A stretch of 64,000 nt of DNA, taken from contig NZ_CP017705.1 of the NCBI RefSeq assembly GCF_002706795.1, positions 3,470,501-3,534,500 on the forward strand, written 5' to 3'. How positions within the stretch are numbered: the first letter of the stretch is position 1; each line of letters opens with the position of its first letter. Made by a program: the position numbers and the translations under genes. Below the pieces are notes generated by a model. That model searched no databases. It saw only the letters and a program-made list of their open reading frames with translations, and was not told where the DNA came from. Origin of the DNA: Brevibacillus laterosporus DSM 25. Its GTDB lineage: Bacteria > Bacillota > Bacilli > Brevibacillales > Brevibacillaceae. This document shows positions 5,362-56,748 of the stretch, piece by piece.

Positions 5362-7188
5362 ATGGATAAAGGAAAAATTCTACTAATTGGCTTTGGACCA
5401 GGACATCATGATCACATTACGCATCGCGCAAAAGAGGCTATCCTAGAATGCGAAGTGGTAATTGGCTACAACACTTATGTAGATTTAATTAGAGAACTAA
5501 TCTCAGAAAAAAGTGTCGTACGTACTGGGATGACAGAAGAGGTTAGTCGTGCTCAAGAAGCGGTAAGATTGGCTGAGTTAGGTAAAGTTGTTGGCGTTAT
5601 TTCTAGTGGGGATGCTGGAGTATACGGCATGGCCGGATTAGTCTATGAAGTACTTGTAGAAAAAGGCTGGAAAGAATCCACTGGGGTGAAGGTAGAGGTT
5701 GTACCTGGGATTTCATCAATTCAATCTTGCGCCTCTTTATTAGGTGCTCCAATCATGCACGACGCTTGCACAATCAGCTTGAGTGACCATCTTACACCGT
5801 GGGCAACGATCGCTAAGCGTGTGGAAGCAGCCGCTTCTGCTGATTTTGTAATTGCGTTGTATAACCCTCGCAGTGGTCGTCGTACACGACAAATTGTAGA
5901 AACACAGCAAATTTTATTAAAATATCGTTCTCCTGATACGCCTGTAGGAATCGTGAAAAGCGCCTACCGAGACCGTGAGCATGTTGTAATTACAACTCTT
6001 GCAGACATGTTGCAGCATGAAATTGGAATGTTGACAACGGTAATCATCGGAAACACGACCACTTTTGTTTACGACCAAAAAATCATTACACCACGCGGAT
6101 ATCAACGTAAATATACGTTAAATCGTATGGATCAACCGCTAAAACCTCATGAACGTTTACAGGAGAAGGCAGAGCCTTGGGCGCTTCACAGTCAGCCTGA
6201 GAATGGAAATCTGTTATCTGGCTCTTCTTCTGAACAAGGACAACCAACTGGTGGAGTGACTGTAGCGACGTCACCACAAGCTACAATACAAGAAGCTCAA
6301 GTTTCTGACTCAACACCATTAGCGACAATGGAAGCCCTTTCAAATCCCAGGCAATTCTCTGGGGAAGTAGAGCAGGTACCTGAAAACTCTTTTCAGGTAG
6401 AAACGGAGAGCTTTCAAGCTCCTAAACAAGCGGTTAAAGCTTTTCAGCTAGCGATGGAAGCGCTTGCGTGTGTTGATGAAAAGACAGCCTTAGAGCTTAA
6501 TCAGGGTATCACTCCGCCACCACGTCCGTTTAGCGGAGTTGTTGATATTTTAGAGCTAGGCGTTTCGCCTGGCGTAGCGCGCAAGAATTTTACCTCTGAG
6601 CAAATGCGACTCTTGGCAGATTTGACTAAAGATGGCGGAGAAATGATGTATAGCATTGAGCATCAAATTCTTCTCCGATTACCTCAGGTAGATCCACAAA
6701 AAGTAACAGAACAATTAAGAGCAGTAGGCTTTCAGTTGTTTCCGATCGGAGCTAGTGCACAGGTAAAAGCATGTGATTTTTGTGATTTAGAAAAGGATGA
6801 ATCCATACCCGTAGCTGAAGAATTAGGCAGACGATTGGATGGTCTAGCTGTGCCTAAAGATTTAAAAATTGGTTTTAACGGCTGCGGAATGGCATGCTAT
6901 GGTGCGGTTATGGAAGACATTGGTCTTGTGTATCGACGTGGTGCATATGATGTGTTTTTAGGTGGTAAACGTATTGGGCGTAATGCACATCCTGGACAAC
7001 GCATTGCTGAGGGAATACCGGAAGAGCAAATTATTGGTCTTGTAGAACGAATTGTGGATGAATATAAGGTAAAAGGTCATATCGATGAACGATTCCATAA
7101 ATTCTTTAAACGTACAGGGCAAGTACTTGAATATCGTTATCAGGAATTCATAGCGCCGTTGCAAATCGAAGAACCGTGTGGAGATTAA
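5362..7188 (+). CDS. cbiH: CbiH60-type cobalt-factor III C17-methyltransferase fused to a nitrite-reductase-like Fe-S domain
   Basis: This enzyme methylates C17 and drives ring contraction of cobalt-factor III to cobalt-precorrin-4. Residues 1-245 are an SAM-dependent precorrin methyltransferase (LIGFGPGHHDHITHRAKEAI, VISSGDAGVYGMAGL, VVPGISSIQSCASLLGAPI). A long Gln/Ser/Glu-rich linker (about 255-390) leads to a ferredoxin-nitrite/sulfite-reductase-like domain with C471-x2-C474 and C508-x3-C512, able to hold a [4Fe-4S] cluster. The layout matches CbiH60 of Bacillus megaterium, whose C-terminal domain carries such a cluster. At 608 residues it is long because of the linker. It is the first gene after the riboswitch and overlaps the open frame of cbiX. 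Start ATG 5362 follows TTGGAG. Confidence 0.93.
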   Translation: MDKGKILLIGFGPGHHDHITHRAKEAILECEVVIGYNTYVDLIRELISEKSVVRTGMTEEVSRAQEAVRLAELGKVVGVISSGDAGVYGMAGLVYEVLVEKGWKESTGVKVEVVPGISSIQSCASLLGAPIMHDACTISLSDHLTPWATIAKRVEAAASADFVIALYNPRSGRRTRQIVETQQILLKYRSPDTPVGIVKSAYRDREHVVITTLADMLQHEIGMLTTVIIGNTTTFVYDQKIITPRGYQRKYTLNRMDQPLKPHERLQEKAEPWALHSQPENGNLLSGSSSEQGQPTGGVTVATSPQATIQEAQVSDSTPLATMEALSNPRQFSGEVEQVPENSFQVETESFQAPKQAVKAFQLAMEALACVDEKTALELNQGITPPPRPFSGVVDILELGVSPGVARKNFTSEQMRLLADLTKDGGEMMYSIEHQILLRLPQVDPQKVTEQLRAVGFQLFPIGASAQVKACDFCDLEKDESIPVAEELGRRLDGLAVPKDLKIGFNGCGMACYGAVMEDIGLVYRRGAYDVFLGGKRIGRNAHPGQRIAEGIPEEQIIGLVERIVDEYKVKGHIDERFHKFFKRTGQVLEYRYQEFIAPLQIEEPCGD

Positions 7189-7201
7189 GGGGGGGAATTC
7201 T

Positions 7202-8263
7202 TTGAACGGAATACTTTTTATCGGTCATGGTAGCAGAGATGCCGAGGGAAATGAGCATCTTCTACAGTTTACACAGCGAGTTACTGAGTTGTTAAAGGAA
7301 CAAACAGAGGTAACACTGTATGAGACTTGTTTCTTGGAGTTAACCAGACCAACCATTATGCAAGGGGTGCAAAAAATAGTAGAGCGCGGGGCTACCACTG
7401 TAGCAATGGTACCATTAATGCTGTTTCAAGCGGCCCATGCAAAACTACACATCCCCCATGAAATAGATGAAGCTAAAGCGAAATATCCACATGTCGATTT
7501 TCGCTATGGTCGCCCTATAGGTGTCCATGAAGATATGGTGCAAATTTTGCGGGATCGTTTACAAAATACAACCACATATACTCCACTAGAACAGGCAAAC
7601 AAGGATAGTGCCATTCTGTTAGTAGGTCGTGGGAGTAGTGACTCGGACGCAAACAGTGACCTATGTAAAATAGCTCGTTTGTTGTGGGAGAGCACAGGGG
7701 TAGGTAACGTTGAAGTGGCGTACATGGGCGTTACCTATCCAACAGTGGAAGAAGGGTTAGTTCGTTGTGTAAGACAAGGAGCTAAGCAAATTTATGTCCT
7801 TCCTTATTTGTTATTTACGGGTATTCTGTTAAAGCGTCTAGAAGAGAATTTACAACAGTTTCATCAGGAGTTCCCTGATATACAAGCATCGATGAGCGAG
7901 GCGTTAGGATTCCATGAATTGCTAGAACAAATTGTGGTAGATCGCTCTGTGGAAGCACTACAAGGACGGGCATTAGCCAACTGTGATCTTTGTCAATTTA
8001 GAAAACTTGCTGTATTCGATCATCACCACCACGATCATGATCACCATCATGACCATGATCACCATCATGACCATGATCACCATCATGACCATGATCACCA
8101 TCATGACCATGATCACCACCATGACCATGATCACCACCATGACCATGATCATCACCATACAAATGGGCATAGTCATACCCCGGTACCAAAAAAGGAACAA
8201 CCATCCTGTAGCAAGGAGTCGCAAGCTACAGAAGCTAACGATAAACGGGGGGTACGTGTATGA
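7202..8263 (+). CDS. cbiX: CbiX(L) sirohydrochlorin cobaltochelatase with His/Asp-rich tail
   Basis: CbiX inserts Co2+ into sirohydrochlorin, the committing step of the anaerobic B12 pathway. Two chelatase half-domains are visible: residues 1-125 (FIGHGSRDAEGNEH, AHAKLHIPHEID) and 130-255 (LLVGRGSSDSDANSD), as in long CbiX(L). After them come C261-x2-C264, matching most of the MxCxxC [4Fe-4S] motif reported for B. megaterium CbiX(L) but with Ala at the Met position, and then a His/Asp tail at residues 273-319. The frame opens at GTG 7178, but TTG 7202 follows AAGGGGGGG at good spacing and the second residue onward (NGILFIGHGSR) matches the family start. The 3' end overlaps cbiJ by four bases (ATGA). 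Confidence 0.92.
   Translation: MNGILFIGHGSRDAEGNEHLLQFTQRVTELLKEQTEVTLYETCFLELTRPTIMQGVQKIVERGATTVAMVPLMLFQAAHAKLHIPHEIDEAKAKYPHVDFRYGRPIGVHEDMVQILRDRLQNTTTYTPLEQANKDSAILLVGRGSSDSDANSDLCKIARLLWESTGVGNVEVAYMGVTYPTVEEGLVRCVRQGAKQIYVLPYLLFTGILLKRLEENLQQFHQEFPDIQASMSEALGFHELLEQIVVDRSVEALQGRALANCDLCQFRKLAVFDHHHHDHDHHHDHDHHHDHDHHHDHDHHHDHDHHHDHDHHHDHDHHHTNGHSHTPVPKKEQPSCSKESQATEANDKRGVRV
8018..8158 (+). repeat. 18-bp tandem repeat coding for (DHHHDH)n in CbiX
   Basis: Six full 18-base units of the form GATCACCATCATGACCAT (two with a CAC for CAT change) run from 8039 to 8146, with partial units on each side. They code for Asp-His-His-His-Asp-His repeats. The near-identity of units suggests expansion by replication slippage; the in-frame 18-base period keeps the reading frame. 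The peptide could bind and store Co2+ or Ni2+. Confidence 0.95.
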
Positions 8264-41405: not shown

Positions 41406-42773
41406 ATGGAAATCTTACTGCTCGGCCTAAATTATAAGACAGCGCCTGTCGAAATTCGTGAAAAATTCACGTTTAATGACGACAGCACGCCGAGAGCACT
41501 TCATATTCTATCTCATACCAAAAGCATTCTAGAATGTATAATTGTAGGAACCTGTAACCGGACTGAGATCTATGTGGTTTGCGATCAATTGCACACCGGT
41601 AGATTCTATACACGGAATTTTCTTGCAGAATGGTTTGGCGTAGAGAAAGAGTCGCTTCTCGATTATATGTATGTAAAGGAAAATGACGAAGCGATTGAAC
41701 ATTTGTACCGTGTAACCTGTGGACTTGATTCCATGGTGATGGGAGAGACACAGATTATTGGTCAAATTCGCAACGCTTTTCTCCTAGCACAACAACATGA
41801 GACTACTGGAACCATTTTTAATACACTTTTTAAACAGGCTGTAACCCTTGCAAAACGCGCTCATACAGAGACTTCTGTTGGCCAAAATGCTGTTTCCATC
41901 AGCTATGCGGCGATTGAACTTGGCAAAAAGATTTTTGGAAGCTTTGCTGATAAACATGTACTGATCTTGGGTGCAGGTAAGATGAGCTTGTTAACAGCCA
42001 AGCATTTGCACGCAAACGGAGTGGCTCATGTTACAGTCGCAAACCGTACGTTAGAACGTGCACAGACCTTAGCTGAACAGTTCCGAGGTGAAGCCTGTAC
42101 CATGGAGGATCTGCCCCAAAAGCTGGCTAAAGCAGACATCGTCATCAGCTCGACGGGAGCAACCGGCTTTGTGTTAACAAAAGCACAATTAAAGCCGATT
42201 ATGAAGCAGCGTCCTCATAAGCCATTGTTTATGATTGATATCGCCGTGCCGCGTGATCTTGATCCTGATATTCATGGGCTAGAAAATGTTTTCTTATATG
42301 ATATAGATGATCTGGAGGGTATCGTTCAGAGCAATTTAGCTGAGCGTTCCAAGGAAGCAGAGCGTATTGAACTTATGATTGAAGAAGAGAAGCAGGAGTT
42401 CATAAACTGGAAACAGACGCTAGGCGTTGTACCACTAATTGCGGCATTGCGAGAAAAAGCATTTTCCATTCACGGAGAAGCAATCCGCAAAATTGAAAAC
42501 AAATTGCCTCATTTAGATGAAAAGGAAATGCATATTATTCGTAAACATACAAGGGGAATTATTTCTCAATTATTACATGACCCAATTGTTCAACTGAAGG
42601 AGTTGACCGTCCAAAAGAAAGGAGAAGAGGTACTCGATATCTTTTCTACTATTTTTGCTTTGGATGAAAGATTGGAAGGAAAAAAACAGGAAGCATTATG
42701 GGAACAACAAAAGCGTGAAAGCTTAAGACGTGAAAAAGCTGTATCATTACAATCACGGGAACAGCGTTTTTAG
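41406..42773 (+). CDS. hemA: Glutamyl-tRNA reductase
   Basis: HemA reduces Glu-tRNA to glutamate-1-semialdehyde, the first step of tetrapyrrole synthesis by the C5 route. Landmarks are the catalytic Cys in IIVGTCNRTEIYVV, GLDSMVMGETQIIGQIRNAF and the NADPH-binding VLILGAGKMSLLTAKHL. The 455-residue length is normal. ATG 41406 follows GGGAGGAAGGCT. It opens the tetrapyrrole operon, and a hairpin follows before hemX. Confidence 0.96.
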   Translation: MEILLLGLNYKTAPVEIREKFTFNDDSTPRALHILSHTKSILECIIVGTCNRTEIYVVCDQLHTGRFYTRNFLAEWFGVEKESLLDYMYVKENDEAIEHLYRVTCGLDSMVMGETQIIGQIRNAFLLAQQHETTGTIFNTLFKQAVTLAKRAHTETSVGQNAVSISYAAIELGKKIFGSFADKHVLILGAGKMSLLTAKHLHANGVAHVTVANRTLERAQTLAEQFRGEACTMEDLPQKLAKADIVISSTGATGFVLTKAQLKPIMKQRPHKPLFMIDIAVPRDLDPDIHGLENVFLYDIDDLEGIVQSNLAERSKEAERIELMIEEEKQEFINWKQTLGVVPLIAALREKAFSIHGEAIRKIENKLPHLDEKEMHIIRKHTRGIISQLLHDPIVQLKELTVQKKGEEVLDIFSTIFALDERLEGKKQEALWEQQKRESLRREKAVSLQSREQRF

Positions 42774-42873: not shown

Positions 42874-43692
42874 ATGGCAAATGCAAGATGGCTCTATGAC
42901 TTGACCATCTTTCTCTATGCAGCGGGTGTACTTTGTTACTTCAATGATTTTTTGCAGAGTAACCGGCGAATGAAGCAAATTGCGCTAGGACTACTCTCGA
43001 TTGTCTGGGTGTTACAAACAATCTTTTTCGTTTACCAAGTGATGGTAAAGTCATATTTGCCCGTTGTAACATTTTTTGAAACCTTAGTTTTTTATTCTTG
43101 GGTACTGGTGACCCTTTCTCTGATCATTCATGCTGTAGCTCGCATTGATTTCTTACTCTTTTTTACTAATGTGATCGGGTTTGGAGTTCTCACCTTATCC
43201 ATGTTCTTTTCAGAGCCAGCAACTCTGCAACATAGCGGGGTTATCTCTGATTTTATTTTTATTCATGTGACAATCGCTATTATTAGCTATGCATTATTGG
43301 CAGTGTCCATGATATTCTCAGGTATGTATCTAGTGAACCTACATATGCTGAAGCAAAAAAAATGGACACCACTTTGGCAACGACTCCCCAGTTTGGAGAA
43401 ATTGGATGCGTTTTCTTTTAAGTTAAACATTTTTGGTGTGCCGTTATTGCTGTTGTCGGTCATTTTAGGCAGTATTTGGGCACAGTTGATTTTTTCGCAT
43501 GGATTCTGGATGGATGCAAAAGTGTGTATGTCTATCATTGTTCTGATCTTATATAGTGTGCTGTTATATCAAAGGGTTCGGAATCAATGGTTGGGAAAAG
43601 TGGCAGCTTGGATAAACATCATCGCATTTGTATGTTTATTGCTTAATTTTTTGCTGATTGATCCCTACTCGCAATTTCATCAATGGTCGTAG
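42874..43692 (+). CDS. hemX: HemX, CcsA-like membrane protein
   Basis: HemX is an integral membrane protein that in B. subtilis lowers HemA abundance. The 272-residue product has about eight membrane helices and belongs to the CcsA/cytochrome c assembly superfamily (FIFIHVTIAIISYALLAVSM, IWAQLIFSHGFWMDAKVCMS). Its place directly after hemA matches hemAX of Bacillus. The likely start is ATG 42874, 100 bases after hemA. Confidence 0.9.
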   Translation: MANARWLYDLTIFLYAAGVLCYFNDFLQSNRRMKQIALGLLSIVWVLQTIFFVYQVMVKSYLPVVTFFETLVFYSWVLVTLSLIIHAVARIDFLLFFTNVIGFGVLTLSMFFSEPATLQHSGVISDFIFIHVTIAIISYALLAVSMIFSGMYLVNLHMLKQKKWTPLWQRLPSLEKLDAFSFKLNIFGVPLLLLSVILGSIWAQLIFSHGFWMDAKVCMSIIVLILYSVLLYQRVRNQWLGKVAAWINIIAFVCLLLNFLLIDPYSQFHQWS

Positions 43693-43705
43693 AGAGGTGG
43701 GGCAG

Positions 43706-44344
43706 ATGAATCCGCATTATCCGATTCATGTTAAAATGGAAGGAATGCTCTGTGCAGTTATTGGTGGTGGAGAAGTAGCCCAACGTAAGGTAGGTTCTCT
43801 ACTAGAGTGTGGGGCAAAAATCACCGTTATTTCTCCTGAGATAACGCCATTGTTAGCTGAGTGGAACGAGCAGGGTAAGATCAATTGGAAACGTGAGCTG
43901 TATCAGGGACAGGATCTAAGTCCGTATTTTTTTATCGTAGCTGCGACCAATCATCGACAAGTTAACTATTCGGTATATGAACAAGCTAAAAGAACGAAAG
44001 CGTTTATAAATATTGCAGACCGACCAGACTTATGTAATTACATTGTTCCCTCTACGGTAAAGCGAGGAAGGCTAGTTATTTCTGTATCTACCTCGGGTGC
44101 AAGCCCCAGTTTGGCAAGTAAACTACGCAGAAGGCTAGAGCGAGAATTTGGCCAGGAATATGAGGTCTATGTTGACTTTTTAGCTCAGATGAGGCTAAAG
44201 GTTTTACAAGAGGTTAAAGATGCCACCGTGCGCAAACAAATCTTTCAAGAGTTGCTTGATGATAGATATGTAGAGGCGTCTTCCCTGCAAAGAGAGCAGA
44301 TGGCAGATGCTTTACTACAACAGGTGAAACAAAGAGAGCAATAA
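43706..44344 (+). CDS. sirC: Precorrin-2 dehydrogenase (SirC/YlnF type)
   Basis: This enzyme oxidises precorrin-2 to sirohydrochlorin with NAD+. The 212-residue product has an N-terminal Rossmann loop ([20 protein letters not shown]), [40 protein letters not shown] and the conserved [18 protein letters not shown]. There is no second chelatase module, so it is dehydrogenase-only like SirC rather than CysG. ATG 43706 follows AGAGAGGTGGGG, although the frame opens inside hemX. Its product is the substrate of CbiX encoded at 7.2 kb, and also of siroheme synthesis. Confidence 0.9.
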
Positions 44345-44358
44345 TTAGGGAGGCAGAC

Positions 44359-45300
44359 ATGAAAGAGTGGAAAGTTGGATCGCGTAAAAGCATGCTGGCA
44401 CTTACCCAAACAAAATGGGTGCTGGCTCGTTTGCGTGAAATAGACCCTGCATCACGTTTTAGCATCACAGAGATTGTTACAAAGGGAGATCGCATTCTGG
44501 ATGTTACACTTTCCAAAGTGGGCGGTAAAGGTCTGTTTGTTAAAGAAATCGAACAATCCCTGCTGGAAGAACAAACTGATATGGCTGTCCATAGTTTAAA
44601 AGATATGCCTGCTGTCTTACCTGAAGGTTTGACGATCGGTGCAATTCCGAAAAGGGAGGACCCAAGGGATGTACTGATTTCCAAGGACGGTAAGACACTA
44701 GATGAATTAAAAGAAGGTGCGGTGGTAGGAACGAGCAGTTTGCGCCGTTCTTCCCAATTGCTACATTACCGACCTGATCTAATTATTAAACCCATTCGGG
44801 GAAATATTGATACGCGAATCCGCAAGCTGCAAGAAGAGGATTTTGATGCGATTATTCTGGCTGCTGCAGGCCTTAAACGTGTGGAATGGAAGGGCACGAT
44901 CACGCAGTATCTCGATCCGAAAATCAGCCTTCCTGCGGTTGGTCAGGGGGCGCTTGCTATTGAGTGCCGTACACATGATGCTGAAATGATGTCACTTTTA
45001 CAACGGTTTGATCATCTGGAGACGCGTTATGCGGTCGAGGCGGAGCGAGCTTTTCTCCATAAGATGGAGGGGAGCTGCCAAGTACCGATTGGTGCTTATG
45101 CAAAAGTCCAGCTAGACTCCGAACAGAAACCTTCCATTAGCATTACAGGAATGGTTGGGTCTCCTGATGGAAGCCAAATGTTTAAAGCAACATTGACTGG
45201 AGACGATCCTCAAGCATTGGGTGAAAATTTGGCAGATGAGCTGCTCCGTCAGGGGGCGCGAGAAGTGCTTGCTAAAGTATTGGAGGAGAATCGTCAATGA
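44359..45300 (+). CDS. hemC: Hydroxymethylbilane synthase (porphobilinogen deaminase)
   Basis: HemC joins four porphobilinogens on a dipyrromethane cofactor. The product of 313 residues shows [58 protein letters not shown] and the cofactor Cys in [16 protein letters not shown] 44359 has a nearby AGGGAGGC. Its stop overlaps the start of the cobA-hemD fusion by four bases. Confidence 0.97.
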
Positions 45301-46805
45301 ACAAAGGGAAAGTTTTTTTAGTAGGTGCTGGGCCTGGTGACCCTAAGTTAATTACGGTGCGTGGATTGGAAACGATTCAAATGGCTGATTGCATCGTGTA
45401 TGATCGCTTGGCGAGTCCACGGTTGTTAGCTCATGCAAAACCGGACGTAGAACTAATATATTGTGGAAAACTGCCTGACCGTCATACATTAACCCAAGAA
45501 GAAATCAATCAGGTATTAGTCGATAAAGCATTAGAAGGGAAAGTCGTTACTCGTCTAAAAGGTGGGGACCCTTCTATCTTTGGTCGTGTTGGTGAAGAGG
45601 CTGAAGAGTTAGCTAAGCACGATATTTTATTTGAAATTGTGCCAGGCATCACTTCAGGGATTGCTGCTCCGGCGTATGCTGGCATCCCGGTGACCCATCG
45701 GGATTTTAATTCGTCTTTAGCGATAGTGACAGGACATGAGCGTCCAGAGAAAACAGAATCAAGTATTAACTGGGAAAAATTAGCTACGGCTGTCGGCACG
45801 CTCATCTTTTATATGGGAGTAGGGAATCTACCCTATATTACGGAACAATTAATGAAGAACGGTCGATCTCCCAAAACACCGGTCGCTTTGGTGCGCTGGG
45901 GGACTTTAGTAGAACAGGAAACCTTGGTTGGTACCTTGGAAGACATTGTAGAGAAGCGTGAGCAAGCGGGCTTAACGAATCCTTCTATTATTGTGGTTGG
46001 TGAAGTGGTACAGCTTCGTGAAAAACTACAATGGTTTGAGAAGAAACCGTTGTTTGGGAAGCGTGTACTCGTGACGCGTGCTAGAAGTCAGGCTAGCGAA
46101 CTATCGAATCAAATCAATGAATTGGGCGGGGAGGCATATGAATTCCCGTTGATAAAGATGGTTGAGCCACAAGCCCTACCACAATTGGATACCGCACTTC
46201 AACAGCTATCAGAGTATGACTGGGTTATGTTTACTAGCCCAAATGGGGTTCAATTCTTCTTTAAGCGCTTGCGTGAACTAAAGATTGACATTCGTACCCT
46301 AACCGGTAAGATTGCGGCAGTTGGTCCAAAAACGGCCTCCATGCTAGAAGAAAGAGGCTTGACGGTAGATGTCCTACCCGGCGAATTTCTGGCAGAAGGC
46401 TTGGTAGAGTCCCTTAAGGATGAATTACAGCCAGGCTCTAAAGTGCTGCTTCCACGTGCCGATATAGCGCGCGAAACCTTACCAAGAGAGCTGAGAACTC
46501 TCGGCATGGAAGTGACGGAAGTAGATACCTATGATACAGTTATAGATGCACAGAACATTGGAGAAACAGTTTCTCTGTTGGAAGAAAAGGCGATACAGAT
46601 CATTACATTTACCAGCTCCTCCACGGTTAAAAACTTTGTGGAAGCGCTGAAGGAATACGATCTTACCCAATTACTTCAAGGTGTGCAGATTGCTTGCATC
46701 GGACCGATTACAGCGGATACGGCAAGACAAGCAGGACTGCAAGTGGATATCATGGCAAGTGAATATACTATTGAAGGACTCGTAAATGCACTAATTACCA
46801 CGTAA
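45297..46805 (+). CDS. cobA-hemD: Uroporphyrinogen-III C-methyltransferase / uroporphyrinogen-III synthase fusion
   Basis: Two successive steps are fused in 502 residues. Residues 1-245 are the SAM-dependent CobA, which makes precorrin-2 ([59 protein letters not shown]). Residues 255-502 are HemD ([55 protein letters not shown]), which cyclises hydroxymethylbilane. Such fusions occur in Firmicutes and tie uroporphyrinogen III directly to the corrin/siroheme branch. It overlaps hemC by four bases and precedes hemB by 15. Confidence 0.95.
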
Positions 46806-46820
46806 AAGGGGAAGTAGACT

Positions 46821-47801
46821 ATGATTAAATTTGACCGTCATCGTCGTTTGCGCCGAAGCCAAGCGATGCGTAACCTTGTACGAGAAAACCATGTGCGTGT
46901 AGAAGATTTGATCTATCCACTGTTCATAGTAGAAGGGGAAAATATTAAAAATGAAATTTCCTCTATGCCTGGCGTTTTCCATTTTTCCTTGGATCGTCTT
47001 AATGAAGAACTTGAAGAAATCGTTAGCTTAGGCATTCAATCTGTTCTTTTGTTTGGAGTGCCAGAGCATAAAGATGCTCTTGGAACGGAAGCATATGCAG
47101 AAAATGGGATTGTACAGCAAGCTATTCGTCACATAAAAGCCTCTTTCCCCGAGATGCTGGTCATTGCGGATACATGCCTATGTGAATATACCGATCATGG
47201 TCACTGTGGTGTTTTGCATGAATGTGGAGAGCTATTAAATGATGAGTCTCTTGTTTTATTAAGCCAAGCTGCTGTATCACAAGCTAAAGCCGGCGCGGAT
47301 ATCATCGCGCCATCCAATATGATGGACGGTTTTGTAACAGCCATTCGTGAAGCTTTAGATGAAGCTGGATTTACACATATTCCAATCATGTCCTATGCGG
47401 TTAAATATGCTTCTGCATACTACGGCCCATTCCGTGAAGCAGCTCAATCCGCTCCGAAGTTTGGTAACCGTAAGTCCTACCAAATGGACTATGCTAATGC
47501 ACGTGAAGGTCTACGTGAAGCAGAATCCGATGTGCTAGAAGGGGCCGATTTCTTAATGGTTAAACCAGGTCTTGCCTATATGGACATGGTTTTACGTTTG
47601 CGTCAAAGCTTTGATTTGCCGTTGGTTGTTTACAATATCAGTGGAGAGTATTCCATGGTGAAAGCAGCTAGTGCCAATGGCTGGATTGACGAACAAGGCG
47701 TCGTTATGGAAACGATGATGGGATTCAAACGCGCAGGTGCTGATTTAATCATTACGTACCATGCAAAAGATGTTGCCAAGTGGCTACAAGGAGGTTTGTA
47801 A
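46821..47801 (+). CDS. hemB: Delta-aminolevulinic acid dehydratase (porphobilinogen synthase)
   Basis: HemB condenses two 5-aminolevulinates into porphobilinogen. The 326-residue product has a zinc-binding cysteine set in [16 protein letters not shown], and the two catalytic lysine regions [20 protein letters not shown] and [13 protein letters not shown]. The zinc-type cysteines indicate a Zn enzyme rather than a Mg-only one. It is followed one base later by the siroheme decarboxylase-like gene with its own AAGGAGG site. Confidence 0.96.
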
Positions 47802-47802
47802 C

Positions 47803-48864
47803 ATGTCGGTTGACTTACTAGATACGTTAGATAAAGAGATTTTGGATGCCATTCAAAAAGAGATTCCATTAGTTCCTGAACCATTTAAAGTCATGGCAGA
47901 AAATTTAGGAACAACAGAAGAAGAGTTAATGGCTCGCTTGGAAAAAATGAAAGGCGATTCTATCCGTCAAATTTCTGCTATTTGTGATACCAAAGCATTA
48001 GGATATAAATCAAGCCTTGTAGCGGCTCGTATTGCTCCAGATAAATTAGATGAGATGGCTGTAAAGATTTTTAATTCCCACCCTGGTATTACACATAACT
48101 ATAAACGTAACCATGACTTTAACCTGTGGTTCACGATTGCTCTACCTCCGAATAGTCGTTTTGGATTGGAAAAAACGGTTGAAATCTTAGGAGAATTGTC
48201 TAATGTGGAATCGATTCGCATTCTACCGACTCTAAAACTGTTTAAAATCGGAGTACAATTAGATGTGAAAAAGGAAACGGAAGCGAATACGAAATCCGCA
48301 CCTACCTACACGGAAGAAATGCGCCAGGCAGCGATTGATCTTGGTATCACTGATGAAGATATCAAGGTGATTATCCAATTGCAAAAGGATTTACCTATCA
48401 CTTCCCGTCCATTTGATGAATGGGCAAAAAACGCTGGCATGACAACAGAGGAATTATTACATCACGCGAAAGTATTGGTGGAGCGTGGTCAAATGCGCCG
48501 TTTCTCTGCGGTTCTAAACCACCGCAAAGCTGGATTCCGTGCAAATGGTATGGGTGTATGGAATGTACCAGAAGAACAAGCTGAGGAAATTGGAATGAAA
48601 ATGGGTTCCTTCCGAGCGGTTAGCCATTGCTATTTACGTCCTACCTACCCAGATTGGAAATACAGTATCTTTACGATGGTACATGGTCGTGATAAGGAAG
48701 AGTGTGAATCAATCCTACAAGCAATTGAGGATGAAACGGGTATCACGGATCGTATCACATTGTACTCTACGAAAGAATACAAGAAAACACGCGTATCTTA
48801 TTTCACACCTGAGATTTATGAATGGGAAAATGAGATGGCGGAAAAACTGGGATTGGATAAGTAA
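47803..48864 (+). CDS. Fused AhbA-AhbB-type siroheme decarboxylase
   Basis: The product of 353 residues is two AsnC/Lrp-like halves in tandem. The first (about 1-165) has AhbA landmarks: an HTH-like start (LDKEILDAIQKEIPLVPEPF) and THNYKRNHDFNLWFTIALPP. The second (about 180-350) has the AhbB landmark SHCYLRPTYPDWKYSIFTMV. In the Ahb heme route these proteins decarboxylate siroheme to 12,18-didecarboxysiroheme; they are often misannotated as Lrp regulators. The usual arrangement is two separate proteins, so this is a fusion. ATG 47803 follows AAGGAGGTTTGTAAC one base after hemB. No AhbC or AhbD radical SAM gene is in the window, so the pathway here is incomplete. A heme d1-type (NirD/NirL) role is the alternative. 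Confidence 0.85.
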   Translation: MSVDLLDTLDKEILDAIQKEIPLVPEPFKVMAENLGTTEEELMARLEKMKGDSIRQISAICDTKALGYKSSLVAARIAPDKLDEMAVKIFNSHPGITHNYKRNHDFNLWFTIALPPNSRFGLEKTVEILGELSNVESIRILPTLKLFKIGVQLDVKKETEANTKSAPTYTEEMRQAAIDLGITDEDIKVIIQLQKDLPITSRPFDEWAKNAGMTTEELLHHAKVLVERGQMRRFSAVLNHRKAGFRANGMGVWNVPEEQAEEIGMKMGSFRAVSHCYLRPTYPDWKYSIFTMVHGRDKEECESILQAIEDETGITDRITLYSTKEYKKTRVSYFTPEIYEWENEMAEKLGLDK

Positions 48865-48935
48865 ACGCGGACAATATCCGCTAGATTGCAATGCATGCGC
48901 TGTTTCCTGATAAGGAGCATATTGTCATAACAGGA

Positions 48936-48972
48936 AAACGCTTGTTTGATCACTTTCAAACAAGCGTTTTTT
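48936..48972 (+). terminator. Terminator/attenuator between ahbAB and hemL
   Basis: AAACGCTTGTTTG and CAAACAAGCGTTT are perfect 13-base arms around an eight-base loop, followed by T. It is a full-strength intrinsic terminator inside the hem operon, 41 bases before the hemL start. Upstream alternative pairings (48867-48926) make it a candidate attenuator. Confidence 0.9.
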
Positions 48973-49013
48973 CTAACAGTTTCACTATAACAGATATTAA
49001 TGGGGTGAGTGGA

Positions 49014-50306
49014 ATGACTCGACAATTTACTAAATCAATGAAATTACATAAAGAAGCGGTAGAATACATTCCCGGTGGGGTTAATAGCCCAGTGCGTGCA
49101 TTTAAAAGCGTAGGGGGCAATCCTATTTATATGGAAAAAGGGGAAGGGTCCCGTATTACCGATGTAGATGGGCATACTTATATTGATTATATTGGCTCTT
49201 GGGGACCTTTGATTTTGGGACATGCTCATCCAAAAGTATTGCAGGCGATTAGTGAAACTGCCTTGCTTGGTACTAGTTTTGGAGCACCTACAGAACGTGA
49301 AACCACGATGGCCAAGCTAGTGTGCGACATTGTCCCTTCAGTAGAAGTTGTGAGAATGGTAAACTCAGGGACAGAAGCAACAATGAGTGCACTTCGCCTA
49401 GCTCGTGGATACACGAGACGAGACAAAATCATGAAGTTTGAAGGCTGTTATCATGGCCACGCGGACAGTTTGCTGATTAAGGCTGGTTCGGGTGTTGCCA
49501 CATTAGGATTGCCGGATAGCCCTGGTGTGCCTGAAACAATTGCAGTAAATACCATTACGGTACCATATAATGACGTTGATAGTGTACGTCTTGCCTTTGA
49601 AAAATTCGCCAATGAAATAGCAGCTGTTATTGTAGAACCAGTTGGTGGAAATATGGGTGTTGTGCCACCTCAACCAGGCTTTTTAGAGGAATTGCGTAGT
49701 ATTACGGAAAAACATGGTACAGTCCTTATTTTTGACGAAGTGATGACTGGATTCCGTGTAGCCCGTGGTGGTGCGCAAGACTTATATAACATCACACCAG
49801 ACTTAACCACGATGGGTAAGGTAATTGGTGGAGGGTTGCCAGTTGGAGCATACGGAGGTAAACGTGAAATTATGCAGCATGTAGCTCCAGCGGGAAGCGT
49901 ATATCAAGCAGGGACCTTATCAGGTAACCCACTGGCAATGGCAGCGGGTATTGCTACATTGTCAGAGCTTAGTAAGCCAGGTGTCTACGAACAACTGGAT
50001 GCTCGTTCAGCCCGCCTAGCAGAAGGCTTAGCAGCTAATGCAACTAAATTAGGAATTCCTCATACCGTAAATCGTGTTGGATCGATGGTATGCTTATTCT
50101 TTACAGATACCCCAGTTGTCAATTATGAGACAGCTAAAACAGCAGATCTGGATAAGTTTTCACGTTATTTCCAACAGTTGTTACAAGAAGGTATCATGAT
50201 TCCACCTTCCCAATTCGAAGGCATGTTCGTCTCAGTTATGCACACTGATGAAGATATTGAAAAGACCATTCAAGCAAGCTATAGGGCAATGGCTACTCTA
50301 GTCTAA
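49014..50306 (+). CDS. hemL: Glutamate-1-semialdehyde 2,1-aminomutase
   Basis: HemL is a PLP enzyme that makes 5-aminolevulinate. The 430-residue product has [57 protein letters not shown] and the PLP lysine in [19 protein letters not shown]. The frame is open from 48891 through the terminator, but ATG 49014 follows GGGGTGAGTGGA and matches the family start. It is the last hem gene of the cluster and ends in a strong terminator. Confidence 0.96.
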
Positions 50307-52040: not shown

Positions 52041-52478
52041 GTGGGAAAAACAAGAGCTAATTCAAAGGTTTTCACGGAACAAGAAATGAAACATCTTGAA
52101 GCTAACCCTTATGTTCAGCATGTAACGTACAAAAGTATTACTTATGCACCAGCATTTAAGGTAGCAGCTGTCAAAGCGTATCAAGAGGGACAAACACCTA
52201 TGGAAATTTTTTGTGGTGCTGGTTTTGACATAGACGTTATTGGTCATGACAAACCAAAAACATGCTTAAAACGTTGGCGTAATGTGTATCAAATTCATGG
52301 AGAGATCGGCCTTTTAGAAGAACAACGAGGAAAGAAAAGTACGGGTAGACCCTCGACAACGGAGTTGTCCGTAGAGGAAAAGCTTAAACGAGCTGAGGCG
52401 CGTATCAAGTTTTTAGAGGCGGAGAACGACTTTTTAAAAAAGCTCGACGCGCTCGAAAAGCAGAAGTTGCAGAGGTAA
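52041..52478 (+). CDS. IS3-family transposase OrfA
   Basis: The 145-residue product is the DNA-binding part of the transposase: helix-turn-helix regions (FKVAAVKAYQEGQTPMEIFC; DKPKTCLKRWRNVYQIHGEI) and a C-terminal leucine-zipper-like coiled coil (VEEKLKRAEARIKFLEAEND). It starts at GTG 52041 after GAGGAAAG. A_AAA_AAG near its end allows -1 frameshifting into OrfB, so it is both a product in itself and the N-terminus of the fused transposase. Confidence 0.93.
   Translation: MGKTRANSKVFTEQEMKHLEANPYVQHVTYKSITYAPAFKVAAVKAYQEGQTPMEIFCGAGFDIDVIGHDKPKTCLKRWRNVYQIHGEIGLLEEQRGKKSTGRPSTTELSVEEKLKRAEARIKFLEAENDFLKKLDALEKQKLQR
52436..52442 (+). promoter_or_regulatory. Programmed -1 frameshift site
   Basis: A_AAA_AAG lies in frame with OrfA (codons TTA-AAA-AAG). 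Slipping back one base continues without a stop into the OrfB frame. This is the standard heptamer of IS3-family elements. OrfB is in the -1 frame relative to OrfA, as required. Confidence 0.85.
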
Positions 52479-53386
52479 CGTTATCCCCCTCCGAGCGCTA
52501 TCAAATCATTAATCGCACCATACGTCAGTACAATTTGCGTGATGTAACACGATATCTTTGTAAACTTGCATGTGTTAGTGCGAGTGGCTACTACCGTTGG
52601 CTTCGTGCGGAGAAAACTAGACAGCTACGAGAGGATGCGGACGAGCATGACATTAAACTTATCAAGAAGCACTTTGACGCTCTTCGTGGTAAAGCAGGAG
52701 CATTAGTTATTAAGATGCGACTTGAGCGTGAAAGTGGAGTGATCATGAATCATAAAAAGATTCGTCGATTGATGCGAAAGTATAAACTTGTTGCTACCAT
52801 TCGCCAAGCCAATCCCTATAGAAAATTAGCTAAGGCAACGCAAGAGCACCAAACATGTCCCAACCTGTTGCAGCGTCAGTTTGATCAGGGAGAACCTGAA
52901 AAAGTACTGCTCACCGATATTACGTATATGTATTACGGTAATGGTCAATGTGCCTACCTGTCGGTAGTCAAGGATGGGGCAACAAAACAGATTTTAGCTC
53001 ACTATCTTTCTTCTTCTTTAAAGCTTCCATTGGTGAGGATTACTTTGAAACGACTGTTCCAACGTCTAGATGGCAACATTCACCCCGAAGCCATTCTACA
53101 CTCAGACCAAGGTCTGCATTATACCCACTTTAAAACCCGTCGCTTAATCAGGAAAGCAGGCTTTAGGCAGTCCATGTCCCGTAAGGGAAACTGTTGGGAT
53201 AATGCTTCCATGGAAACTTTTTTTGGTCATATGAAAGACGATTTGGAATATAAGACATGTCAAACGATACAAGAGTTGAGGGATCGAGTAGACAGTTACA
53301 TTGATTATTACAATTCTGAACGTTACCAGTGGTCATTAAAAAAGATGACCCCTGATGAATTCAGAAGTCATCTTTTAGCTGCCTAG
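52442..53386 (+). CDS. IS3-family transposase OrfB (DDE catalytic part, via frameshift)
   Basis: This is the integrase-like catalytic region of the transposase, reached by -1 frameshift from OrfA. The frame has no ATG; the first in-frame start-like codon is TTG 52535. The DDE residues are visible: Asp in LLTDITYMYYGNG, Asp in ILHSDQGLHYTH and Glu in WDNASMETFFGHMKDDL, with the usual IS150-group spacing. There are no internal stops, so it appears functional. Confidence 0.92.
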   Translation, partial: ARRARKAEVAEVTLSPSERYQIINRTIRQYNLRDVTRYLCKLACVSASGYYRWLRAEKTRQLREDADEHDIKLIKKHFDALRGKAGALVIKMRLERESGVIMNHKKIRRLMRKYKLVATIRQANPYRKLAKATQEHQTCPNLLQRQFDQGEPEKVLLTDITYMYYGNGQCAYLSVVKDGATKQILAHYLSSSLKLPLVRITLKRLFQRLDGNIHPEAILHSDQGLHYTHFKTRRLIRKAGFRQSMSRKGNCWDNASMETFFGHMKDDLEYKTCQTIQELRDRVDSYIDYYNSERYQWSLKKMTPDEFRSHLLAA

Positions 53387-53571
53387 TTAGGTATTCTTTT
53401 AAAACTGTCTACAAATAGGGTCACAGTTCAATCATGGTATTGCGGGACTTTTTTCAAAATCAGTAGGTGAGATGTATACCTTATGTCAAATCCTTCTCTC
53501 ATGTTCTATTTCCATTGCTCTGTCCATATAGATATAGGGAAATGCTTGTGGAGCTGAAAGGAGGAGCAGGT

Positions 53572-56500
53572 GTGTCTGTACAAGATGGACTGTTATCGTT
53601 TCAAATGAAAGAGACCATATTTCTCTCATCAGATAAACCAGAAATTGAAGAACTGCGGGAACTGGAGTTATTACCCGATTTGGAAATAAGGGAAAATGAT
53701 TATGAGATTACGATATGTGGGTCCTTACAACTTCGAGGCAAGTATGTGCCGACCAAGAACGCCAATGCAAAAGCGAATGGCGGAACGGACACCTTGGTTT
53801 CGGCCATGAAATTTACGCCATTGCAGTTGGAACAAGGAGATACGGAAGTTTTTTTCGCTGATGAAGAAGCGGATATCGTGCATCGTATACCATTAAGTAT
53901 CTCTGTTCCCATCTCCAGAACCAAAGAGGTCTCTGATATTCACGGGATTGTCGATAGTTTTGACTATGAGATAAAAGGCCCTAAACAATTACTCATTACT
54001 GCTGATCTGAAAATAGCTGGAATCCAGCTAAAGAATGAACAGGAGATACGTGCTGAACAGCAATCGCATAAATCAGCTGATACCTGGGAGTATATTCAAG
54101 TAGCTCAAGATGAGAGTGCTGAACATGAATATCAGCATGTCACTATTGATGATCTAGAACGAAAGCTGACCGCTTTAGAGAAAGAAGTAGAGGCTCAATT
54201 GGAACAACAGAACGACGAGGGACAAGAATTGATAGATGAGGTGGCGGATACAGAGCAATATCAACCATACCCGCTATATCAGCCATTTCCGGGATTTGAA
54301 ATGCAGCAAGGAGATGTAGCTCAAAGTAGCTGGGATCAAGATTCGGCTACACGTTTTCGTTATCAACATCCACAGTATGCAGCTTATGAAGCAGAAGCTG
54401 AAGAAGAAGCAGAGAGAGAAGAAATTGAAGAAATCGAGCAATCAAGTAATGTACCTTATCAAACTTATTCAAATATACAAGAAGAATCTATGGGGCAGCA
54501 ATCACCTTATGAGTATGGATTCCACCCAATTTCCATGCCAGAGCCCCCGCAATATGCACCGCCGTACGGCACACAGCCATTTTATCCAATAAATTCTTTT
54601 GGGCAGGGACCAGGCCATGGGTTTGGTGTAGAGCCGAACCCAATTCCTTTTGCACCACCACCTCCAAACCCGTTTCAACCGATAGCAGGACAGTTTCATC
54701 ATCAGCAACCACCACAATATCCATTTGCCCAGATGCCACCATATGCGCCACCGCAACAAATGTTTTATCAACATCCGCCAAATCCGGTACCCGAACCTGT
54801 TTCTGCCATGCAGTACCAACCGGAATATATGGCTAAATCTCCATATCAAGCTACTTATCAGCCACCACCTTCTAATGAATATGTGGAAGAATCAGTGGAA
54901 GATCAAGAGGTAAGGACTGACGGTGTGTATGCAGAACCTGTATCCTATCATGAGCCGGTGGAAGTTGAAGATGATGATGAAGCTGCTCTAGAGGAGGTGC
55001 ATGAATCTCCATACGAAGCTACCTTTAAAGAGGAGTCATCTCACATTGAGCAGTCTGAACCATTTACATTGATTTCAGAACATCAAGAAGAAGCTACAGA
55101 GCCAAAAGAAGCGGTTGTAAAACACAAAGAAGTAGTTACAGAGCCAAAAGAAGCGGTTATAAAACACCAAGAAGTAGTTACAGAGCCAAAAGAAGCGGTT
55201 ATAAAACACCAAGAGGTAGTTGCAGAGCCAAAAGAAGTTGCTGTAAAACATCAAGAAGAAGCTACAGAGCCAAAAGAAGCGGTTGTCAAACACCAAGAAG
55301 TAGTTACAGAGCCAAAAGAAGCGGTTATAAAACACCAAGAGGTAGTTGCAGAGCCAAAAGAAGCGGTTGTAAAACATCAAGAGGTAGTTACAGAGCCAAA
55401 AGAAGTTGCTGTCAAACACCAAGAGGTAGTTACAGAGCTAAAAGAAGTTGCTGTAAAACACCAAGAGGTAGTTGCAGAGCCAAAAGAAGCGGTTGTAAAA
55501 CATCAAGAAGTAGTTACAGAGCCAAAAGAAGTTGCTGTAAAACACCAAGAGGTAGTTACAGAGCTAAAAGAAGTTGCTGTAAAACACCAAGAGGTAGTTG
55601 CAGAGCCAAAAGAAGCGGTTGTAAAACATCAAGAAGTAGTTACAGAGCCAAAAGAAGTTGCTGTAAAACACCAAGAGGTAGTTACAGAGCCAAAAGAAGT
55701 TGCTGTAAAACACCAAGAAGTAGTTACAGAGCCAAAAGAAGCGGTTGTAAAACATCAAGAAGTAGTTACAGAGCCAAAAGAAGTTGCTGTAAAACACCAA
55801 GAGGTAGTTACAGAGCCAAAAGAAGTTGCTGTAAAACACCAAGAAGTAGTTACAGAGCCAAAAGAAGTTGCTGTAAAACACCAAGAAGTAGTTACAGAGC
55901 CAAAAGAAGTTGCTGTAAAACATCAAGAAGTAGTTACAGAACCAAAAGAAGCGGTTGTCAAACAGCAAGAAATGGCTACAGAGCCAAAAGAAGTTGTTAC
56001 TGAACAACGCGAGGAATGGATAGCGAATCCTCATTCTCGATCTAAAGTGCAATTATCCGCTGATCCAGATCCATATGCAAAGTACTGGGAAGGTAGTGAA
56101 GATGATCAAGAAGATGTAACCAAAACAGCAAAAAAGGAAGCAACAACAGAAAGAACGACAGAAGCATCCAAAGTACATGTCGACCTAGATGAAAATAGGG
56201 TGCATGCTCATACAGCGGAATATGATCAGGAACTGCAAGCCCCTGCTATCAGTACGGAATTAAGCACAGAAGAAGAGGCTTCGGTTCTCATGGCTCAACT
56301 AGAAGCGGAAGAAGAAAAATCGGTAGAGGAAATCGTTGCATCCCCAGTGGTTGAACAAGAAAAAGAAATGAAAGTAGCAATTGGTTCAAAAAACAATCAT
56401 AAAGAGCAAAATGAAATGATGAATTTTTCCAATATTTTCTCCCATCTACATGGAAATGAAAAAAATAAAAACCAACGTGTGGAGAGTAAACAGGAGGAGG

Positions 56501-56748
56501 CATTAGAACAAACGAAAGCTAAACGTGATGGCAGTAGTTCACGTAGAGATGCATTAGGGAACCTAACCTCGTTTGTTCAGGATCGTACAGAAAAATTCAG
56601 TAAATTGAAAATGTGTATCATCCAAAAAAATGATACCTTAGATTCTATTGCACAGCGATATGATTTGTCCGTGACCAAAATTAAAGAGGCGAATCGAATG
56701 TCAACAGATCGGGTAGAAGAGGGGCAAATTCTTTACATTCCGCAATAA
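53572..56748 (+). CDS. spoVID: SpoVID-like spore coat assembly protein with long internal repeat
   Basis: SpoVID anchors coat proteins around the forespore (encasement). The N-terminal domain (about 1-145; LLSFQMKETIFLSSDKPEIE, NDYEITICGSLQLRGKYVPT) resembles B. subtilis SpoVID, and a C-terminal LysM domain occupies the last 45 residues (IIQKNDTLDSIAQRYDLSVT). Between them lie an acidic region, a Pro/Gln/Tyr-rich stretch (about 220-450), and residues 510-803 made of 21 repeats of 14 residues. The 1058-residue length is nearly twice that of the B. subtilis protein. The frame opens upstream, but GTG 53572 follows AAGGAGG at seven bases. Position before the CotS-like genes and valS is the Bacillus order. 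The IS lies just upstream. Confidence 0.9.
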   Translation: MSVQDGLLSFQMKETIFLSSDKPEIEELRELELLPDLEIRENDYEITICGSLQLRGKYVPTKNANAKANGGTDTLVSAMKFTPLQLEQGDTEVFFADEEADIVHRIPLSISVPISRTKEVSDIHGIVDSFDYEIKGPKQLLITADLKIAGIQLKNEQEIRAEQQSHKSADTWEYIQVAQDESAEHEYQHVTIDDLERKLTALEKEVEAQLEQQNDEGQELIDEVADTEQYQPYPLYQPFPGFEMQQGDVAQSSWDQDSATRFRYQHPQYAAYEAEAEEEAEREEIEEIEQSSNVPYQTYSNIQEESMGQQSPYEYGFHPISMPEPPQYAPPYGTQPFYPINSFGQGPGHGFGVEPNPIPFAPPPPNPFQPIAGQFHHQQPPQYPFAQMPPYAPPQQMFYQHPPNPVPEPVSAMQYQPEYMAKSPYQATYQPPPSNEYVEESVEDQEVRTDGVYAEPVSYHEPVEVEDDDEAALEEVHESPYEATFKEESSHIEQSEPFTLISEHQEEATEPKEAVVKHKEVVTEPKEAVIKHQEVVTEPKEAVIKHQEVVAEPKEVAVKHQEEATEPKEAVVKHQEVVTEPKEAVIKHQEVVAEPKEAVVKHQEVVTEPKEVAVKHQEVVTELKEVAVKHQEVVAEPKEAVVKHQEVVTEPKEVAVKHQEVVTELKEVAVKHQEVVAEPKEAVVKHQEVVTEPKEVAVKHQEVVTEPKEVAVKHQEVVTEPKEAVVKHQEVVTEPKEVAVKHQEVVTEPKEVAVKHQEVVTEPKEVAVKHQEVVTEPKEVAVKHQEVVTEPKEAVVKQQEMATEPKEVVTEQREEWIANPHSRSKVQLSADPDPYAKYWEGSEDDQEDVTKTAKKEATTERTTEASKVHVDLDENRVHAHTAEYDQELQAPAISTELSTEEEASVLMAQLEAEEEKSVEEIVASPVVEQEKEMKVAIGSKNNHKEQNEMMNFSNIFSHLHGNEKNKNQRVESKQEEALEQTKAKRDGSSSRRDALGNLTSFVQDRTEKFSKLKMCIIQKNDTLDSIAQRYDLSVTKIKEANRMSTDRVEEGQILYIPQ
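55099..55980 (+). repeat. 42-bp tandem repeat, 21 units, in spoVID
   Basis: Twenty-one full units of 42 bases code for EPKEAVVKHQEVVT and close variants (EVAVKHQEVVT, ELKEVAV...); a partial unit 22 follows at 55981. From unit 7 to 18 the variants recur with a three-unit (126-base) period. The bases are highly conserved between units, indicating recent expansion. The charged pattern (Glu/Lys alternating) suggests a helical or extended spacer arm. Confidence 0.95.

Follow-up and report, generated by a model that had tools for sequence, protein, structure and literature searches.

We describe a gene at positions 47803–48864 of a 64,000-nt stretch of Brevibacillus laterosporus DSM 25 DNA (contig NZ_CP017705.1, positions 3,470,501 to 3,534,500 of the forward strand; hereafter the window), whose product is predicted to be a fused AhbA-AhbB siroheme decarboxylase and not an Lrp regulator. 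Very probably, this single-chain enzyme serves the only heme route that our genome searches showed, in which siroheme would be converted to didecarboxysiroheme, then to coproheme and finally to heme b.

The hem operon and the predicted decarboxylase gene

The genes and features concerned are as follows (scores in bits, family cut-off in parentheses).

7178..8263, plus strand: CbiX-type chelatase of the cobalamin operon; CfbA model 95.2, below cut-off (120)
41406..42773, plus strand: hemA, glutamyl-tRNA reductase; TIGR01035 494.8 (209.55)
42874..43692, plus strand: hemX, CcsA/CcsB-like membrane protein; CcsB model 97.6, below cut-off (187.6)
43658..44344, plus strand: sirC, precorrin-2 dehydrogenase; TIGR01470, siroheme synthase N-terminal domain, 154.2 (62.3)
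44359..45300, plus strand: hemC, hydroxymethylbilane synthase; TIGR00212 362 (164)
45297..46805, plus strand: cobA-hemD fusion; TIGR01469 316.3 (185)
46821..47801, plus strand: hemB, porphobilinogen synthase; NF006762 507.9 (297)
47803..48864, plus strand: predicted fused siroheme decarboxylase; AhbA half at residues 10-155, AhbB half at residues 190-333
about 48933..48972 (within 48925-48985), plus strand: strong hairpin resembling a terminator, 3′ of the decarboxylase gene and 5′ of hemL
49014..50306, plus strand: hemL, glutamate-1-semialdehyde aminomutase; TIGR00713 651.5 (527.3)

The operon thus runs hemA, hemX, sirC, hemC, cobA-hemD, hemB and decarboxylase, followed by the hairpin and hemL. 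HemX was named by its place after hemA; the excerpt of PMC5801465 reports hemX solely in genomes with the capacity for heme synthesis. The start codon of sirC is uncertain. The cobA-hemD product joins a uroporphyrinogen-III methyltransferase to a uroporphyrinogen-III synthase, the latter matched by HemD models at about 252-500 with scores below their cut-offs. An earlier note on this DNA had stated that the operon also makes sirohydrochlorin, and the cobA-hemD and sirC profiles, both over cut-off, agree with it.

The decarboxylase reading frame begins with ATG, ends with TAA and is open throughout its 353 amino acids. A good ribosome-binding site (AAGGAGG) lies just 5′ of the ATG, and the single base between the end of hemB (47801) and the start at 47803 was confirmed as the earlier note had given it. 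Its description of a two-half chain with AhbA and AhbB landmark motifs also held, since both motifs (HNYKRNHDFNLWFT at residues 98-111 and SHCYLRPTYPDW at residues 274-285) and both profiles were matched. The hairpin 3′ of the gene has a predicted stability of -22.1 kcal/mol (z -8.36; none of 200 shuffles as stable) and a U run; it was absent from the list of a consensus terminator scan. For hemL the list of open reading frames gives a start at 48891, yet the start is probably 49014, because in the longer reading the family match starts at residue 48 and the ribosome-binding site ahead of 49014 is better than that ahead of 48891. With the hairpin and this start taken together, the decarboxylase gene is therefore probably the last before a terminator and not tightly joined to hemL: the gene does lie between hemB and hemL, as first proposed, but a terminator-like hairpin separates it from the latter.

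Assignment of the product to the siroheme decarboxylases

Siroheme decarboxylase has curated NCBIfam equivalog models for its alpha and its beta subunit, and each recognised one half of the chain: AhbA (NF040708) scored 262.6 bits over residues 10-155 (cut-off 140, E 7e-79) and AhbB (NF040707) 248.3 bits over residues 190-333 (cut-off 125, E 1.8e-74). These scores are far beyond chance. Pfam found an NirDL-type HTH and AsnC_trans_reg2 in two stretches each, and the only two AsnC_trans_reg2 matches in the whole genome at E 1 both fell inside this gene. By sequence the closest solved relative was NirDL of Hydrogenobacter (PDB 4ch7; residues 12-347, E 2e-82).

Since the two halves share their fold family with Lrp/AsnC proteins, the product could be read as a transcription regulator sensing siroheme or heme. 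Residues 6-50 do match an HTH_AsnC-type model (30.7 bits, cut-off 27); a better fit to the HTH regions came from the NirDL-type HTH (107 bits), and the best Lrp model gave the chain 38.6 bits (cut-off 250). The ranking of Lrp families above AhbA and AhbB, named in the earlier note as one result that would overturn its identification, was thus not seen, and its expectation that automated annotation would call the protein an Lrp regulator does not hold for the current NCBIfam equivalog models, which name both halves.

The structure model, built with 27 aligned sequences, had a mean pLDDT of 94.4. Its top PDB match in a fold search was again NirDL 4ch7 (E 4.0e-34; TM 0.73 and 0.82, rmsd 4.9 over the whole chain), followed by NirDL 4czc (E 2.6e-32), then the AhbA/B chains of 4czd, and only then Lrp-type proteins, over approximately one half. 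Two histidines are reportedly essential in siroheme decarboxylase, as the title of one study has it. In our alignment H93, H104, H275 and H294, and likewise R55, R102, R232, R233, R279 and R330, occur in all 44 rows, and H98 is nearly invariant among the 27 aligned sequences. In the predicted structure H98 lies within strand 96-102 and H275 within strand 273-278, so that each ferredoxin-like half carries a histidine on its beta-2 strand, the position described for both halves of the solved siroheme decarboxylases in the excerpt of PMC4835899. The modelling and active-site comparison that the earlier note had proposed therefore favour its identification of the protein: NirDL fold, H98 and H275 on the beta-2 strands, and conserved arginines and histidines. 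The profile scores and the fold led us to reject the regulator reading, which the invariant or nearly invariant active-site residues also oppose; we consider it extremely improbable.

The predicted decarboxylase resembles NirDL of Hydrogenobacter thermophilus (4ch7, 4czc) as a single chain with both halves and the same fold, with 37% identity in the fold alignment and a second-strand histidine in both halves. It differs in its host: here the gene belongs to the hem operon of a Gram-positive bacterium whose genome has ChdC and gave no NirS match. Each half also matches one subunit of Desulfovibrio desulfuricans AhbA/AhbB (4czd, 4un1), which are two separate polypeptides there and one chain here. 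The view that siroheme decarboxylase is normally two polypeptides is not borne out, as fused AhbAB is described as common in archaea (excerpts of PMC3004389 and PMC11237513) and is known from Hydrogenobacter NirDL.

Heme and siroheme genes in the genome

The B. laterosporus genome is a single contig of 5.40 Mb rated 100% complete. Profile searches of it returned no match for HemH (CpfC) at E 0.001 or E 0.01, none for HemE (UroD) at E 0.001 and none for HemY (CgoX) at E 1e-6, while the Bacillus subtilis control was matched in each of these searches; the last of these searches covered HemY itself, for which CgoN/YtpQ is a known alternative. ChdC (HemQ) is encoded at C1:1409584-1410195 (369.1 bits to NF008913, hydrogen peroxide-dependent heme synthase, cut-off 253), with HemQ 1t0t as its closest solved relative. 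CbiX-type chelatases were found in the cobalamin operon of the window and at C1:2652397-2653041. The latter was called SirB-like by family and size. CobA, sirC, a CbiX-type chelatase and AhbA/B are accordingly all present in this genome.

At 5.30 Mb lies a gene for a NirJ1/AhbC-like radical SAM protein, with 610.8 bits to NirJ1 (cut-off 650), 483.7 to AhbC (650) and 411.6 to NirJ (515.45). Beside it is a radical SAM gene of family TIGR04053 (470.6 bits, cut-off 395), whose product reached 364.8 bits with AhbD (cut-off 500). Genes near the pair encode a transporter of the NarK type, a regulator of the Crp/Fnr type, a NasC-like molybdoenzyme and a protein that weakly resembles YtfE (iron-sulfur repair). 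The gene search suggested in the earlier note hence yielded ChdC and a NirJ1/AhbC-like gene below the cut-offs, but no hemE, hemY or hemH and no AhbD over cut-off.

Proposed route to heme b

Starting from the observed gene identities, the classical genes that were not found, the gene order, the conserved histidines and the predicted fold, we infer the route below: each of its reactions, the order in which the enzymes act, and how ChdC and the radical SAM enzymes divide the work according to oxygen. HemA, HemL, HemB, HemC, CobA-HemD and SirC would make uroporphyrinogen III and sirohydrochlorin, with CobA converting uroporphyrinogen III into precorrin-2 and SirC converting precorrin-2 into sirohydrochlorin, into which the SirB-like CbiX would insert iron to give siroheme. 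The decarboxylase halves, predicted to be Lrp-like ferredoxin folds, may jointly enclose siroheme in a barrel, and the enzyme would take CO2 off the acetates of rings C and D to yield 12,18-didecarboxysiroheme. The NirJ1/AhbC-like radical SAM enzyme would then remove the acetates of rings A and B, giving coproheme, which ChdC would turn into heme b aerobically and the TIGR04053 enzyme possibly anaerobically.

Judged by gene content, the decarboxylase is most likely on the main heme route and not on a second one, because HemE, HemY and HemH were not found and siroheme genes and ChdC are present. The earlier note had offered a second heme route, or a new role in sensing or trimming siroheme beside the classical pathway; neither agrees with a single-contig genome in which HemE, HemY and HemH were not found. 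A parallel route beside a working classical pathway does describe one relative, Brevibacillus sp. SYP-B805, where hemE, hemH and hemY lie side by side and a decarboxylase is encoded as well. For the present genome, in which as in 14 of the 15 others compared none of the three passed its cut-off, such a reading is very improbable.

The enzyme could instead supply didecarboxysiroheme for heme d1 or another cofactor derived from it, and not for heme b. Decarboxylases of the NirDL type also have a part in making heme d1 (excerpt of PMC7242693), the radical SAM partner scores best with the putative heme d1 family NirJ1 and is encoded near nitrate genes, and one of five genomes of the genus gave a cytochrome-d1 match (43 bits, cut-off 25.5). 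Set against this, no HemE, HemY or HemH was found that could make heme otherwise, ChdC is present, and the genome gave no match to the cytochrome cd1 nitrite reductase NirS at E 0.001. Heme d1 as the main role was rejected because of this lack of a NirS match, and we regard the reading as unlikely. The cytochrome-d1 match in the related genome (G002:C3:129289-129666, L074) is partial, covering positions 6-130 of 368 within a 673-aa frame.

Several points weigh against the assignment to the main heme route. The NirJ1-like protein is under both the NirJ1 and the AhbC cut-off, the TIGR04053 protein is under that of AhbD, and the SirB-like protein is under the cut-off of every NCBIfam model listed (best 86.2 vs 120). 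The radical SAM genes stand about 1.8 Mb away from the hem operon in a nitrate-linked cluster, 10 of 16 decarboxylase-bearing genomes are without an AhbC-like gene, and the profile misses are compatible with non-homologous replacement of HemE or HemH.

Mixed heme pathways are already an accepted idea. About 70% of the monoderm Gram-positives reportedly rely on the coproporphyrin pathway, and Chloroflexota have mixed heme gene sets (both from the excerpt of PMC10991733); in PMC5801465 the legend of a figure, with reference to the 2017 review PMC5312243, marks as hybrid paths those organisms whose gene combinations are unusual. Brevibacillus may already be listed in that review. In our literature searches we found no paper on siroheme and heme biosynthesis in Brevibacillus or in Thermoleophilia, and on heme biosynthesis in B. 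laterosporus a single one, which deals with a herbicide-target oxidase.

A close parallel is Haloferax volcanii, which according to the excerpt of PMC5746218 has Ahb genes and ChdC without uroD, cgoX and cpfC, and which likewise pairs siroheme-based early steps with ChdC at the end; there ChdC is used for aerobic and AhbD for anaerobic growth (PMC5746218, PMC8305020, excerpts). Unlike B. laterosporus, a member of the Bacillota with a plain ChdC, it is an archaeon whose ChdC (PitA) bears an extra domain; it has a recognised AhbC, which is lacking from 10 of the 16 genomes compared here. The coproporphyrin-dependent pathway of Bacillus subtilis (HemE, HemY, HemH, ChdC) shares with our genome the early hem genes and ChdC as last enzyme; in place of HemE, HemY and HemH, which were not found here, stand SirC, the SirB-like protein, the decarboxylase and the AhbC-like protein. 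A Bacillota lineage appears to have kept the early operon and the last enzyme and to have replaced the steps between them by a detour through siroheme, as in haloarchaea, and Brevibacillus is for this reason a possible bacterial model for heme pathway rebuilding within a genus. Two enzymes are to be looked for, a substitute for AhbC and an oxygen-independent coproheme decarboxylase.

Comparison of sixteen genomes

The B. laterosporus genome was compared with 15 genomes behind other decarboxylase loci (12 Bacilli including one Brevibacillus MAG, two Solirubrobacter and one anaerobe), a hand-picked and hence not random sample that does not include the genome behind L005. HemH, HemE and HemY each passed the cut-off in one of the 16 genomes, SYP-B805 (G010) in all three cases; for HemY some match at E 1e-6 was seen in 12. 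A weak ferrochelatase match in G015 (17.7 bits) overlaps a CbiX match and was left out of the HemH count. ChdC was over cut-off in 15 genomes (not in Fuchsiella) and CbiX in 15 (not in G018). NirJ1-like proteins above 600 bits were encoded in five, namely our genome, G005, G015, G016 and G019, and only the last two passed the NirJ1 family cut-off. Nine of the 16 genomes, ours included, are Brevibacillus; SYP-B805 holds both gene sets, and in the other eight HemE, HemH and HemY remained under cut-off.

In ten of the 16 genomes the decarboxylase and ChdC occurred with HemE, HemY and HemH under cut-off and NirJ1 at no more than 110.3 bits. Single absences are weak, as no completeness is given for genomes that were reached through loci, but ten absences together are hard to ascribe to assembly gaps. 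The search control Sulfolobus acidocaldarius gave matches to AsnC_trans_reg2 and ChdC, none to HemE, HemH or HemY, and some NirJ1 match at E 1e-20, under cut-off.

Gene order and descent of the decarboxylase

We found 54 decarboxylase loci, among them L001 with a protein 98% identical to that of the window. The order from hemA to the decarboxylase was identical in all 14 Bacilli loci (L001-L014), and hemL followed within about 1 kb in 12 of them; in L011 and L012 it comes approximately 2 and 8 kb later. Among 17 Actinomycetota loci, labelled Thermoleophilia-like in this analysis, the order hemB, decarboxylase, hemL was present in 15; the other two contigs end before hemL. The hem operon of Fuchsiella (L050; Halanaerobiales) contains NirJ1 (718.3 bits, cut-off 650), NirJ2 (526.5 bits, cut-off 500) and, just before hemL, AhbA and AhbB as separate genes. 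Because of this content, the Brevibacillus operon looks like that of Fuchsiella minus the two radical SAM genes and with the decarboxylase genes fused, the direction of such a change being conjectural.

A tree of 31 decarboxylases placed its eight Brevibacillus rows, the protein of the window included, in one group (100/100), so descent is consistent with one origin within the genus. This group lies near Thermoactinomycetaceae and Tepidibacillus, and Acidobacteriota fall inside that part with weak support.

Candidates for the missing steps

With ten of 16 genomes lacking an AhbC-like gene, AhbC cannot be the general answer. Because these ten have the decarboxylase and ChdC without HemE, HemH, HemY or an AhbC-like gene, coproheme appears, by gene content, to come from an unrecognised enzyme acting on didecarboxysiroheme. 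Among the AhbC-less bacteria tested are Brevibacillus fluminis, dissolubilis, fulvus and massiliensis, Hazenella, Shimazuella and Solirubrobacter. We give about even chances to the proposal that in these, and perhaps in Sulfolobus and Nitrosopumilus, an undiscovered non-AhbC enzyme, probably oxygen-tolerant or oxygen-using, converts didecarboxysiroheme to coproheme for ChdC. According to the excerpt of PMC3004389, Sulfolobus acidocaldarius, Haloquadratum walsbyi and Nitrosopumilus maritimus have no NirJ1 or NirJ2 among their ahb-nir genes, and their heme synthesis was questioned there; these organisms are archaea but share a decarboxylase without AhbC.

For an AhbC substitute, we searched families common to the decarboxylase loci (a subset of clusters was annotated) and 12 gene maps, and ran Pfam on 20 neighbours from L018, L019, L027, L030 and L038; GC-rich antisense frames give false families in such a comparison. 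Around ChdC (14 genomes and four other stretches) the families seen were ChdC (14 of 18 loci), a frame antisense to it (7 of 18), and Crp/Fnr-like and radical SAM genes (4 of 18), with no other sense family in more than four. The only lead from the neighbourhood search, a candidate oxygen-using substitute judged from sequence, is a diiron protein of L038 and L041. Its gene, found at 7928-8911 of L038 (Bacterium HR19) and 6778-7761 of L041 (a near relative), encodes a 327-aa diiron-like, R2lox-like product and ends at the decarboxylase gene start. The L038 protein gave 34.4 bits with the RNR small chain model, and the L038/L041 protein matched PDB 7qbk, an R2lox homologue from Sulfolobus acidocaldarius, at E 3.6e-5; tblastn at E 1 found no match to it in the other loci compared.

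TIGR04053 is a candidate for the oxygen-independent coproheme decarboxylase, an enzyme called yet unknown in the excerpt of PMC10965808, because of its likeness to AhbD and its place in SYP-B805. There, a TIGR04053 gene (L118, 11364-12497; 493.1 bits) is located one gene after hemE, hemH and hemY, and the intervening gene has no NCBIfam match.

Other features of the window

The CbiX-type chelatase of the cobalamin operon (7178..8263) has a long His/Asp-rich repeat tail and is a putative further user of sirohydrochlorin. In the same operon, the reading frame at 5362-7188 encodes a 608-aa methyltransferase, extended at its C-terminus by a long additional part with cysteines, which we take to be CbiH60-like. 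Just 3′ of the hem region, two adjacent reading frames (52041-53386) are by appearance presumably an IS3-type transposase pair. They are followed at 53467-56748 by a gene for a 1093-aa protein that repeats a unit of about KHQEVVTEPKEAV many times in tandem, whose C-terminus we assume to be LysM-like and which as a whole presumably resembles a spore morphogenesis protein.
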